Origin: Clostridiaceae bacterium
GTDB taxonomy: Bacteria > Bacillota > Clostridia > Saccharofermentanales > Saccharofermentanaceae
DNA: 64,000 bases
Direction: 5' to 3'
NCBI GenBank assembly: GCA_012729635.1
Contig: JAAYCT010000008.1
Coordinates: forward strand, 1 to 64,000
Both the position numbers and the translations under genes were made by a program. The first letter of the stretch is position 1. Every line of letters begins with the position of its first letter. This document shows positions 258 to 20,604 of the stretch, piece after piece. The notes beneath the pieces were generated by a model. The model worked only from the letters and a program-made list of their open reading frames with translations. It was not told where the DNA came from and did no database searches.

Positions 258-2732
258 ATGGCATACTCGATCGAGACCGACCGCAAATGGCAGAAGCGCT
301 GGGAAGAAACCGGGCTTTATCAGTTCGACCCGGACGCCGTCGATAAGAAGCTCTATTGCCTCGAGATGTTTTCCTACCCTTCCGGCGCCAACCTTCACGT
401 CGGTCATTGGTACAATTTCGGGCTCACCGACTCCTGGGCGCGCATGAAGCGCATGCAGGGCCATAACGTCTTTCATCCGATGGGCTTTGACGCCTTCGGA
501 CTTCCGGCGGAAAATTACGCAATCAAGACCGGCATTCACCCGCAGGATTCGACGCTCAATAACATCCGTACAATGGAGAAGCAACTCCGGGAGATCGGAG
601 CGACCTACGATTGGAGCTATGAACTCGCAACCTGCCTTCCGGACTACTACCGCTGGAACCAGTGGATTTTCCTTCGTTTGCTCGAAAAGGGCCTGGCGTA
701 CAGAAAGAACGCACCGGTCAACTGGTGCCCGCAATGTAATACCGTCCTTGCGAACGAACAGGTGATCGACGGCGCGTGCGAGCGTTGTTCCGCCGAAGTC
801 GTAAGAAAGAATATGACGCAATGGTTTTTCGCGATCACGAAGTACGCGCAGGAGCTTCTGGATTTCCTTCCGAAGCTCGACTGGCCGGAGAAGACCAAGA
901 AGATCCAGACCAACTGGATCGGCCGCTCCGAGGGCGCGCAGATCTCTTTTCTGTGCGAGAAGGACGGAAAGCCCCTTACCGACGACAATCATGAGCCCGT
1001 AAAGCTCGACGTTTTCACGACGCGCGCGGACACCCTTTTAGGCGTCACCTATGTCGTCGTCGCCCCCGAGTCCGAGATCTGTGATCTTTTGACCACCGAC
1101 GAGTGTCGCGAGAACGTCGCTTCATACCGGGAATTGACCCGGAAAGCCAGCGATATCGATCGTATGTCCACGACGCGGGAAAAGACCGGCGTATTCACCG
1201 GATCTTTCGCGATACACCCGATCACCGGAAAGAAGTTTCCGATCTGGGCGGCGGACTATGTCATCGCCGGCTACGGAACCGGCATCGTCATGGCCGTCCC
1301 CGCGCACGACGAACGCGACTTTGAGTTCGCGACGAAGTTTGGCCTTCCGATCCTCCGCGTCATCGCCTCGGCTCCGGACGCCGAAGACAAGCTTCCCTTC
1401 ATCGAAAAAGGCATCAATGTAAACTCCGGCGAATTCGACGGCCTCGGTTTTCAAGATTCAGTACACGCGATCATAAATAAGCTATCCGCGCAGAACATGG
1501 GCGAGCTCAAGATCAATTTCCGCCTGCGCGACTGGCTGATCTCCCGTCAACGCTACTGGGGCACACCGATCCCGGTCGTCCACTGCGAAAAGTGCGGCGT
1601 CCTCCCGGTTCCCGATGAAGACCTGCCCGTGCTTCTTCCGTACGACGTGGAATTTCGCCCGGACGGCGAATCGCCGCTTGCGAAAAACGATGCGTTTATG
1701 AACACGACGTGCCCCCGTTGCGGCGCGCCCGCCAAGAGAGACCCCGATACGATGGATACCTTTGTCGACTCCTCTTGGTATCAGTTCCGCTACCCGGACA
1801 ACCGGAACGACAAGGCTCCTTTTAACCGTGAGCTCATCAATACGATGTGCCCGGTCGATAAATACGTCGGCGGCCCCGAGCACGCGGCGATGCATCTGCT
1901 GTACGCGCGGTTTTTTACAAAAGCCCTGCGCGACATGGGTTACCTCAATTTCGACGAGCCTTTCTCCTCTCTCGTTCACCAGGGCATCATCCTCGGGCCG
2001 GACGGCAACCGGATGTCCAAGAGCCGCGGGAACACAGTCGCTCCGGACGAATATGTCAAAAAATACGGATCCGATGTCTTTCGAACCTACCTCGGCTTCG
2101 GATTCGCTTATACCGAGGGCGGCCCGTGGAGCGACGGAGGACTTCAGGCGATCGCCAAATTCATCGGGCGTATCGAACGCCTGATCGAAGATATTGCAGA
2201 CGCGCCTTCCGGTAAACCTTTCTCCGGGGATCCGTCCGGCGACGACAAGGCGCTTCTTTATGCTCTGAACTACACGATCAAATCCGTTACCGCCGATACC
2301 GACCGGTTTCAGTTCAACACCTCGATCGCCCGATTGATGGAGCTTCTGAATGCGATCGGTAAATATCGCGATTCCGGAAAGGTCAAGCCCGCACTCCTGA
2401 GAGAAACGTGTGAAACCCTCCTTCTGCTGTTATCACCCTACGCGCCGCATTTCTGCGAGGAGATGTGGGAGAAGCTCGGAAACACCTACTCGATCTTTAA
2501 CCAAAAATGGCCGGAACACGACGAGGCCGCGCTCGTCCTCGATACGATCGAGATCGCCGTTCAGGTCAACGGGCAGGTCAAATTCAAGCTCGATATCGAT
2601 AGCGAACTCTCCGCCGGGGAGGTTGAGAAACTCGTCCGGGACGACGATCGTCTGACCGAGGTTCTGGCCGGACGTAACATTGTTAAATTCATATACGTGA
2701 AAGGGCGTCTGGCAAATATCGTCGCAAAATAA
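258..2732 (+). CDS. leuS: Leucyl-tRNA synthetase
   Basis: Cytoplasmic class Ia aminoacyl-tRNA synthetase that charges tRNA-Leu with leucine. The HIGH-type signature is HVGH at about residues 47-50 and the KMSKS-type loop is [10 protein letters not shown] near residue 585. A zinc-ribbon-like insert (CPQC...CERC) follows near residue 170, then the CP1 editing domain and a C-terminal anticodon-binding region. At 824 residues it has the usual bacterial length. The frame has two possible ATGs, at 252 and 258; I chose 258 because the AGTGAGG ribosome site (243-249) is correctly spaced from it and the protein then begins [11 protein letters not shown]. It is followed after about 20 bases by a convergent gene, with no clear terminator between them. 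Confidence 0.97.
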
Positions 2733-19348: not shown

Positions 19349-19879
19349 ATGAGCGATCCGTCCATCAAACAGATTATTTATTCTCAGGAAACTCTGCAAA
19401 AAAAGGCTGCGGAGCTTGGGCAAAGAATTTCCGAGGATTATCGCGATAAAGAGTTGGTGCTGATTGCGGTGCTCAAAGGCTCCATGTATTTCTTCGCCGA
19501 TCTTACCCGAGAGATTGACATCCCGATCGGTGTCGATATGATATCCATCGGAAACATCCCCGATACAACCAGTCGTACGGGAATCGTCCGGATTACCAAG
19601 GATTTGGATTTGGATATCACCGGTAAACATGTTTTGGTCATCGAGGATATTATCCGAACCGGGCTTACGACCGCCTATCTGATTCAGAGCCTTGAGGCCC
19701 GAAAACCGATTGATGTGAAAGTTTGTACTCTTCTATACAATCCGGATCGTTTATTGATTAACGTTCCGATTGCGTATTACGGATTTGAAGTCAGCCGCTC
19801 CTGGCTCGTCGGGTATGGAATGGACATCGACGAAAAATGGCGGAATCTGCCGTACATCGGCGAACTGGATCATCCGTAA
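19349..19879 (+). CDS. hpt: Hypoxanthine phosphoribosyltransferase
   Basis: Purine salvage enzyme that joins hypoxanthine or guanine to PRPP in the cytoplasm. The PRPP loop is VLVIEDIIRTGLT, with Glu99 and Asp100, and the length of 176 residues is normal. The segment LIAVLKGSMYFFADL is the usual early signature. The ATG is preceded by GGGAGAGAAGG. It is the second gene of a two-gene operon and is followed by a strong terminator. Confidence 0.95.
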   Translation: MSDPSIKQIIYSQETLQKKAAELGQRISEDYRDKELVLIAVLKGSMYFFADLTREIDIPIGVDMISIGNIPDTTSRTGIVRITKDLDLDITGKHVLVIEDIIRTGLTTAYLIQSLEARKPIDVKVCTLLYNPDRLLINVPIAYYGFEVSRSWLVGYGMDIDEKWRNLPYIGELDHP

Positions 19880-19938: not shown

Positions 19939-19975
19939 GAAGCACCCGCCGGATAACGGCGGGTGCTTCTATTTC
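19939..19975 (+). terminator. Strong terminator after hpt (probably bidirectional)
   Basis: A perfect 13-bp GC-rich stem (19939-19951 with 19957-19969) and a five-base loop. On the plus strand it is followed by TATTTCC; on the minus strand by CTGTTTTC. It can stop hpt transcription and also any read-through of the convergent RNA gene. Confidence 0.9.
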
Positions 19976-19991: not shown

Positions 19992-20430
19992 CAAAAAGGG
20001 GCTCCAGCGAACCTATTCGATACTTCCGACTGTTTCCGGTTGCCCTTTATTATCTGCGAATCTCAATAGCCTGACGAATGAACCGTATCTTCGCGGACTT
20101 ACTTGGTTCGAACTAATGCCCTCGCCGTTCCATCCTTCTGATTCCGAACCTACTCGGTGCCGGCTTTCACCTTTGCCTTTCAATCCTTCCGACCCCCCGG
20201 ACATCGCGACTCGGCTTCCACCTACTCGTTCCTTCCGTAAGATCTTGACTCATTGCGCCCATGCCCGCGACTTGTGTCCGCCTTCGCGTACCGTCAATCG
20301 CTATTCGCTTTCCACTTCCCAACGCTCCTACTCGCTACCTTGATATGATCTCCGATACGAATGATCATTGCGTCCGGTGTGGCGGCACTCCTTCAAGGAA
20401 TCGGTGTTCTCTAGTATTCCCTGGAGCTTG
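19992..20430 (-). ncRNA. Large structured non-coding RNA of unrecognised class, about 437 nt
   Basis: A transcription unit without a credible protein. It has its own promoter (20463-20436) and terminator (20013-19993). The 5' end GCUCCAG (20427-20421) can pair with CUGGAGC near the 3' end (20007-20001). Next to it GGAAU (20420-20416) pairs with AUUCC (20401-20397). AUGAUC (20368-20363) pairs with GAUCAU (20350-20345), and GGUUCG (20150-20145) with CGAACC (20110-20105). CGGACA (20280-20275) could pair with UGUCCG (20203-20198). CGAGUAGG occurs three times. The strand is rich in GGAAG/GAAAG purine motifs, as in junctions of large folded RNAs. It lacks the RNase P GAGGAAAGUCC core, a tmRNA CCA end and SRP helix 8. 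Large Firmicute RNA classes such as ROOL remain possible. Confidence 0.7.
19993..20013 (-). terminator. Intrinsic terminator of the non-coding RNA
   Basis: On the minus strand GGUUC (20013-20009) and GAGCC (20004-20000) form a 5-bp hairpin with loop GCUG, then CC and five U (19997-19993). The hairpin uses the same bases as the 3' half of the helix that joins both RNA ends, so the two structures exclude each other. Confidence 0.65.
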
Positions 20431-20435
20431 TTTTA

Positions 20436-20463
20436 ATTATAGCATGGACACGCATCCTGTCAA
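20436..20463 (-). promoter_or_regulatory. Strong extended -10 promoter of the non-coding RNA
   Basis: On the minus strand a perfect TTGACA (20463-20458), a 16-bp spacer and a perfect TATAAT (20441-20436) preceded by TGC. Transcription should start near 20429, right before the pairing 5' end. Confidence 0.8.
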
Positions 20464-20604
20464 GGCTTTTTCACAACAATCGGCGTTTTTCATCTTTGAT
20501 TTTTGTGCATTATAAACATAAAATCGCCAAATGCCTATGGGTCAAGGCTTTCGCCAGTTTAGACGTTGAGAGCAAAACGTTACGGAAAAAATTTGTTTAC
20601 GAAT
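20464..20604. other. Spacer between divergent RNA promoter and yjbQ promoter
   Basis: An A+T-rich stretch with no supported gene. A frame from 20496 to 20678 exists but starts at a TTG with no ribosome site and overlaps the yjbQ start. Confidence 0.5.

Follow-up and report, generated by a model that had tools for sequence, protein, structure and literature searches.

The stretch of DNA analysed here, a window of 64,000 nucleotides, very likely carries on its minus strand, from 20427 to 20001, a stand-alone gene for a large folded non-coding RNA of a real structured class that is absent from Rfam 15. Transcription of the gene is inferred from its promoter, without transcript data. Promoter-like sites numbered 7, against 0.9 in shuffled sequences, and the site at 20463–20436 is the perfect one (Table 1). 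The two ends of the RNA are complementary (GCUCCAG/CUGGAGC) and form helix P1, downstream of which lie CCC and five T residues (T-run at 19997–19993). A short hairpin, GGUUC-GCUG-GAGCC at 20013–20000, shares bases with P1. In relatives this GGUUC/GAGCC hairpin is not kept, the letters 3' of GGAGC being variable, whereas P1 and the T-run are. Open reading frames on the RNA strand reach at most 63 amino acids, inside the RNA, with another of 51; in relatives with 84% identity, stops and frameshifts interrupt the 63-residue frame, the longest frame per RNA has a median of 41.5 amino acids across 90 RNAs, and indels do not come in threes. Folded by itself, the sequence has an ordinary energy (MFE z-score about 0, 0.0), and the case for structure therefore rests on comparison.

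The first-pass annotation, made from sequence alone, had placed a structured non-coding RNA with its own promoter and terminator at 19992–20463, and this held, with coordinates correct to within a few bases. Its minus-strand TTGACA-16 promoter was confirmed as a 12/12 match with an extended -10, its claim that no credible reading frame exists stood, and so did the pairing of the ends, with P1 near-invariant in relatives and recovered by MFE folding. It had also described a GGUUC/GAGCC hairpin with a T-run that shares bases with the terminal helix; this is correct, but the hairpin is better regarded as a side feature, the conserved 3' end consisting of P1 and the T-run.

To define the family, we collected relatives by several routes. 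A blastn search across the family recovered relatives in 32 of 115 genomes. The 14-nt 5' end GCTCCAGGGAATRC occurred exactly in 74 of the 188 Saccharofermentanales genomes, with 5 hits for a reversed control, and the 13-nt 3' end in 89 of 188 genomes of the order, several of these being coincidences in coding sequence. From a hand count that admitted genomes carrying either both ends or a single end together with RNA body, we estimate about 85 carriers among the 188, plus a few other Clostridia, e.g., Papillibacter. The RNA is not universal, as over half of the order, whose members in this set are described as gut, rumen and digester Clostridia, lacks detectable end motifs; within Saccharofermentans, too, some members have the RNA and others do not. 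Scanning 84,980 GTDB genomes with the 5' end plus promoter returned 59 stretches whose titles all place them in Clostridia: Saccharofermentans, Mageeibacillus, Fastidiosipila, their relatives, and Papillibacter cinnamivorans DSM 12816. After removal of identical copies, 90 unique full-length RNAs in 32 clusters remained, 244–622 nt long with one of 1135 nt, sharing near-invariant ends (GCUCCAGGGAAUAC ... GGUUCGCUGGAGC) and a sigma-A-like promoter at fixed spacing. These RNAs were partly selected by promoter and end motifs, and the near-universality of both is partly an artefact of collection; the first 30 loci, however, had been gathered only through similarity of the RNA body, and 30/30 of them had the promoter, with the 5' end shared by every one except for a single minor variant.

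Length varies widely within this family. The Papillibacter form, at 257 nt, is among the short ones. The 1135-nt member (L039, from 1500 on the plus strand) holds its extra sequence between conserved ends and is about four times the minimal size. Within one genus, members of 401–403 nt (L010, L016, L019) lack a block of about 180 nt, located in the P4-enclosed domain, that is present in members of 585–591 nt (L006–L009), a difference that possibly points to a removable module. In at least two genomes the RNA occurs as diverged tandem copies, every copy having a separate promoter and 3' end (two copies in L038; L130 at 940–1192 and 1484–1746, plus strand).

Minimal members reveal a common plan. 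P1 is followed by a G-G mismatch, P1', a variable P5, and P6, which precedes a conserved G-CC opening P2; further inward come the P2 hairpin, P4 (GCGAA/UUCGC) around P3/P3b and a variable domain, and a purine-rich strand ending in AAAG before the 3' strand of P6. Sequence comparison shows a rod of stacked helices (P1, P1', P5, P6 and P4) with a three-way junction from which hairpin P2 branches; inside P4 lie the P3/P3b hairpin and a lineage-specific variable domain. The unconstrained MFE structure of the window RNA holds P1, P1', P5, P6, P2 and P4; P3 is absent from it, and enforcing P3 as well costs 2.3 kcal/mol. Of four GAGUAGG/AAGUAAG-like motifs in the window RNA, three lie inside the variable domain; such repeats were considered as a defining feature and dropped, being present in only part of the family.

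Table 1. Features of the RNA gene and its surroundings, in window coordinates.
Feature	Position	Strand	Basis or remark
hpt, hypoxanthine phosphoribosyltransferase, convergent neighbour	19349–19879	+	TIGR01203 above cut-off
Strong back-up or shared terminator, 13 bp, between RNA gene and hpt	19939–19969	-	Stronger than the short hairpin; downstream of the RNA
3' end: P1 3' strand, alternative short hairpin, T-run	19993–20013	-	Most relatives have a T-run 3' of GGAGC
Mature RNA, 427 nt, predicted start 20427–20429	20001–20427	-	Both ends exact or nearly so in homologues
P1 3' strand, CUGGAGC	20001–20007	-	Near-invariant; in MFE
P1' 3' strand, GUUC	20009–20012	-	Near-invariant, complementary
P5 3' strand, AGUCGG	20026–20031	-	Swap test of region
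P6 3' strand, GGCA	20041–20044	-	Two-sided changes; swap test
Conserved purine-rich joining strand AGAUAAUAAAG between P4 and P6	20045–20055	-	AAAGG-like in most relatives
P4 3' strand, AUUCGC	20056–20061	-	Pair counts, 33 relatives
Variable domain enclosed by P4	20062–20266	-	Length and sequence differ between genera
P3/P3b hairpin GCGAUUGACGG..GGCGGACACAAGUCGC	20267–20301	-	R1 match; pair counts
P3 strands	20301–20297/20271–20267	-	Pair counts
P3b, inner stem	20288–20286/20281–20279	-	Pair counts
P4 5' strand, GCGAAU, pairs with 20056–20061	20303–20308	-	Pair counts, 33 relatives
P2 3' strand, GUGG	20312–20315	-	Pair counts; model R1
Lineage-specific insert in P2 loop, 63 nt (loop of 3–8 nt in minimal relatives)	20316–20378	-	Against relatives of 244–275 nt
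P2 5' strand, CCAC, right after conserved CCG, pairs with 20312–20315	20379–20382	-	Pair counts; model R1
P6 5' strand, UGCC, pairs with 20041–20044	20384–20387	-	Two-sided changes; swap test
P5 5' strand, CCGAUU, pairs with 20026–20031	20399–20404	-	Swap test of region against 3' end
P1' 5' strand, GAAU, after G-G mismatch, pairs with 20009–20012	20416–20419	-	Near-invariant, complementary
P1 5' strand, GCUCCAG, pairs with 20001–20007	20421–20427	-	Near-invariant; in MFE
Sigma-A promoter, TTGACA-N16-TATAAT plus TG (extended -10)	20436–20463	-	12/12 match; same architecture and spacing in relatives
Degenerate copy of conserved palindrome TTTGTGCA-N3-TGCACAAA, about 85 nt before RNA start	20502–20522	.	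Half-site in relatives

Compensatory changes support most of this fold. For P2, P3 and P3b, examined in 8 diverse sequences, 94.8% of cells were paired, compared with 29–40% in slid versions, and 13 of 18 pairs had changed on both sides (4.0 in shuffles). For P4 and P6, across 33 sequences, 86.8% of cells were paired, 72 cells showed two-sided change against 25 when shuffled and 0–15 when slid, and two-sided change was seen at 11/11 pairs. Taken alone in the same 33 relatives, P4 had 92% of cells paired with two-sided changes at 6/6 pairs, and P6 had two-sided changes at 5/5 helix positions. The strands of P4/P6 and of the covariance model R1 were laid out by hand, and the counts lean towards structure for this reason; two less biased tests were therefore run. 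When the joining region after P1 (J1) was matched with its own 3' end in a partner-swap test, 0 of 20000 permutations were as good, against 4696 of 20000 for a control from the middle of the RNA. P6 strands chosen by rule likewise gave 0/20000. For P4, the automatic version of the test did not reach significance (1485/20000), since the GCGAA/UUCGC sequence is so widely shared.

Model R1, built from 8 other sequences with the window left out, finds 20386–20264 at E=5e-9, across a 57-nt insert. The N-padded version of the MAFFT core alignment was used. Two loci returned by the class-wide R1 search (L123 and L124) were rejected as false positives, having neither the ends nor a promoter. P1 itself lacks compensatory proof because it is almost invariant, and the relatives were partly collected via P1 sequence and promoter; its rare changes keep pairing by wobble only (GUUCCAG in L148–L150, CUGGGGC in L095). 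With these reservations on P1 and on the automatic P4 test, a structured class whose core of P1, P5, P6, P2, P4 and P3/P3b is backed by compensatory changes, measured against shuffled, slid and partner-swapped controls, is very likely. Two criteria for a new structured RNA class are satisfied, namely compensatory changes within a common fold of distant relatives and detection of the window RNA by a model made without it; the third, transcription in the cell, is inferred from the conserved promoter architecture.

No catalogued name could be attached to the RNA. Rfam 15 (4227 families, including OLE, ROOL, GOLLD and raiA) gave no match at the locus at the gathering threshold, the best E of 0.4 in the window being at chance level, and the relatives scanned against Rfam 15 matched no family either. 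Three housekeeping RNAs in disguise were considered and rejected, the genome having separate matches to class A RNase P RNA (RF00010, G000:C32, E 2.7e-94), tmRNA (RF00023, G000:C44, 154 bits) and 6S RNA (RF00013, G000:C21, 44.2 bits, just below the cut-off of 46.4 and a probable 6S). With E allowed up to 10, the SRP covariance model gave no match in the window RNA. In the literature searched, the exact end sequences appeared only in one unrelated human paper, and a 50-genome ncRNA survey makes no mention of these taxa.

These results also bear on the remaining first-pass claims. At least four further helices had been proposed, and comparison gives P5, P6, P2, P4 and P3/P3b as the core besides P1. 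Exclusion of RNase P, tmRNA, SRP and 6S held. The suggestion that the RNA is of the ROOL, OLE or GOLLD kind or else a new class is supported, since those families are in Rfam and none matches; the likeness to ROOL and GOLLD needs refining, as this gene belongs to the chromosome and passes on by vertical inheritance, and those RNAs are phage-linked. The Rfam scan served as a refutation test and yielded no match, and what the homologues keep is base pairing rather than codons.

In most relatives outside Saccharofermentans the RNA gene faces hpt, mostly 17–403 bp apart, with a cytidylate-kinase-like gene beyond hpt, an arrangement also seen in distant families (L064, L103, L061). In the window, the cytidylate-kinase-like protein (PF13189; 18395–19330, plus strand) has a C-terminal extension, and its gene consistently adjoins hpt and the RNA. 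Saccharofermentans and Papillibacter copies mostly lie elsewhere, and many of the former, as well as the Papillibacter copy, have no adjacent hpt. Because it usually faces hpt across families, the gene is inherited vertically with the chromosome and is not mobile. A phage, plasmid or viral origin was rejected, as viral, phage and plasmid collections contained no match to the RNA.

A half-site of the upstream palindrome is present before 18 of 30 cluster representatives, against 3.8 expected. Upstream regions with the palindrome include those of L004, L006, L009 and L108, and further sites are found in L195–L213. Across 11 genomes of one genus, palindrome sites numbered 2–6 per genome compared with 0–2 control sites. 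They recur in the promoter region from which argB and a UgpC/MalK-type sugar ABC ATPase gene diverge, before a choice-of-anchor A surface protein gene, and near dihydrofolate reductase. From this pattern of sites at the RNA, the sugar ABC ATPase and other genes, we infer that a carbon-related regulator may control the RNA; a small carbon-related regulon including the RNA is possible, and we regard it as a lead only.

Overall, an undescribed trans-encoded structured RNA is likely the best explanation of these data, with a structural or regulatory role and probably high abundance and protein binding via the terminal stem, all of which is inferred. Action in trans is proposed, and inferred, because the gene moves away from hpt and duplicates in tandem. 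The strong promoter and sealed ends would give a stable, abundant RNA, abundance being inferred without transcript data. Since the 12–13 nt terminal stem is fixed in sequence, not merely in pairing, while the body drifts, this stem may be read by sequence, whether the reader is a protein, a processing enzyme or some RNA that it targets. The RNA may then serve in an RNA-protein particle, either as its scaffold or as a decoy, and the level of this particle, by analogy with raiA/ModT RNA in other Clostridia, may be tied to growth or carbon supply. Of the mechanisms considered we adopt this particle, though only tentatively and at somewhat less than even odds; no protein partner is known and the scaffold role is inferred. 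A bolder reading, no more than possible, takes the RNA as a machine of a categorically new sort: a ribozyme, or a particle of housekeeping type, that the ancestor of Saccharofermentanales already had. Some unknown partner would recognise it by the nearly unchanging terminal stem, single lineages would have grafted domains of their own into the P2/P4 loops, and it would do work that falls to raiA RNA or some protein in other Clostridia.

Among alternatives, the one surviving best is a ribozyme or RNA-only multimer akin to OLE, ROOL and GOLLD, in which oligomer formation and catalysis would both be inferred. Its size, ornate fold and orphan status favour such a multimer, and large natural RNAs can form RNA-only cages (PMC12286853). 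However, minimal members of about 245–275 nt and a poorly conserved body leave little room for a fixed catalytic core, and no phage or tRNA-array link was seen for the RNA gene. We consider this alternative unlikely.

Less tenable still is a very divergent relative of raiA/ModT RNA (RF03072), an abundant sigma-A-driven growth-transition RNA of other Clostridia. In its favour, none of the order members sampled yielded raiA, although 78/391 genomes of the class have it, and raiA holds GUGRUUGA..CAGUCGCAGG, which resembles P3 (GYGAUUGA..CA(A)GUCGCAGG). In 23 raiA sequences, however, the similar segment pairs otherwise (UGUGG with CCACG, GUCGCA with the UGCGGC strand) and the P3 pairing is not kept. 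Searching the 23 raiA loci with R1 gave nothing up to E=5, and ends, helix order and neighbours differ. Homology inferred from the shared GAUUGA..CAGUCGCAGG string was rejected after this alignment and search; the membership test for raiA/ModT (raiA core, GUGG/CCAC and GUCGCA/UGCGGC pairings) was not met, and the relationship is very unlikely.

Very unlikely as well, though a little less so, is a local regulator of the facing hpt, acting by antisense or transcription interference. The convergent arrangement described above speaks for it, but the RNA ends before hpt, behind terminators, copies without neighbouring hpt exist, and control of hpt would not need a folded core. A CsrB-type sponge binding CsrA via many GGA motifs is all but excluded, barring a CsrA-like protein that escaped recognition: the window RNA is purine-rich and multi-hairpin with 19 GGA in 427 nt, yet minimal relatives have few GGA, and of the 20 searched for CsrA (PF02599) only one has it, the window's genome and 18 further relatives being without. 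Equally close to exclusion is a small-protein gene or pseudogene misread as RNA, which the 63- and 51-residue frames would suggest and the broken frames of close relatives contradict.

Large structured bacterial RNA classes are rare, and OLE, ROOL, GOLLD and raiA are still without a settled biochemical role. What is new here is a class that matches no catalogued RNA family and appears undescribed, with covariation across roughly 85 species-level genomes and one core spanning about 245 nt to more than 1 kb. Its frozen ends, set against a free body, point to a specific partner. The cultured type strain P. cinnamivorans DSM 12816 carries the RNA, so expression and structure are testable at once. 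We very likely see an undescribed class, of unknown function, within a known kind of large orphan structured RNAs.

Among these, raiA/ModT shares with it the character of a stand-alone structured Clostridia RNA with a strong sigma-A promoter, a core of about 200–300 nt, a closed terminal stem and variable inserts, and has been published as abundant and trans-acting (PMC11706538); helices and ends are not shared, models and sequences give no cross-hit, and raiA was not found in the Saccharofermentanales sampled. OLE RNA (RF01071) is likewise a large orphan chromosomal RNA of anaerobic Firmicutes, but differs in sequence, ends and neighbours, and no Rfam match links the two. ROOL, named for rumen samples, and GOLLD are similarly large and ornate with variable linker domains. 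They are phage/prophage- and tRNA-island-linked (PMC12286853), whereas the RNA described here is vertically inherited beside hpt, without viral, phage or plasmid match or Rfam hit. 6S, RNase P RNA and tmRNA, of which the genome has separate copies (for 6S a probable one), resemble it as housekeeping-type structured RNAs with closed ends. Y RNAs, to which no homology is shown, offer a works-like comparison: they too combine a sequence-conserved terminal stem containing a mismatch with a variable body.
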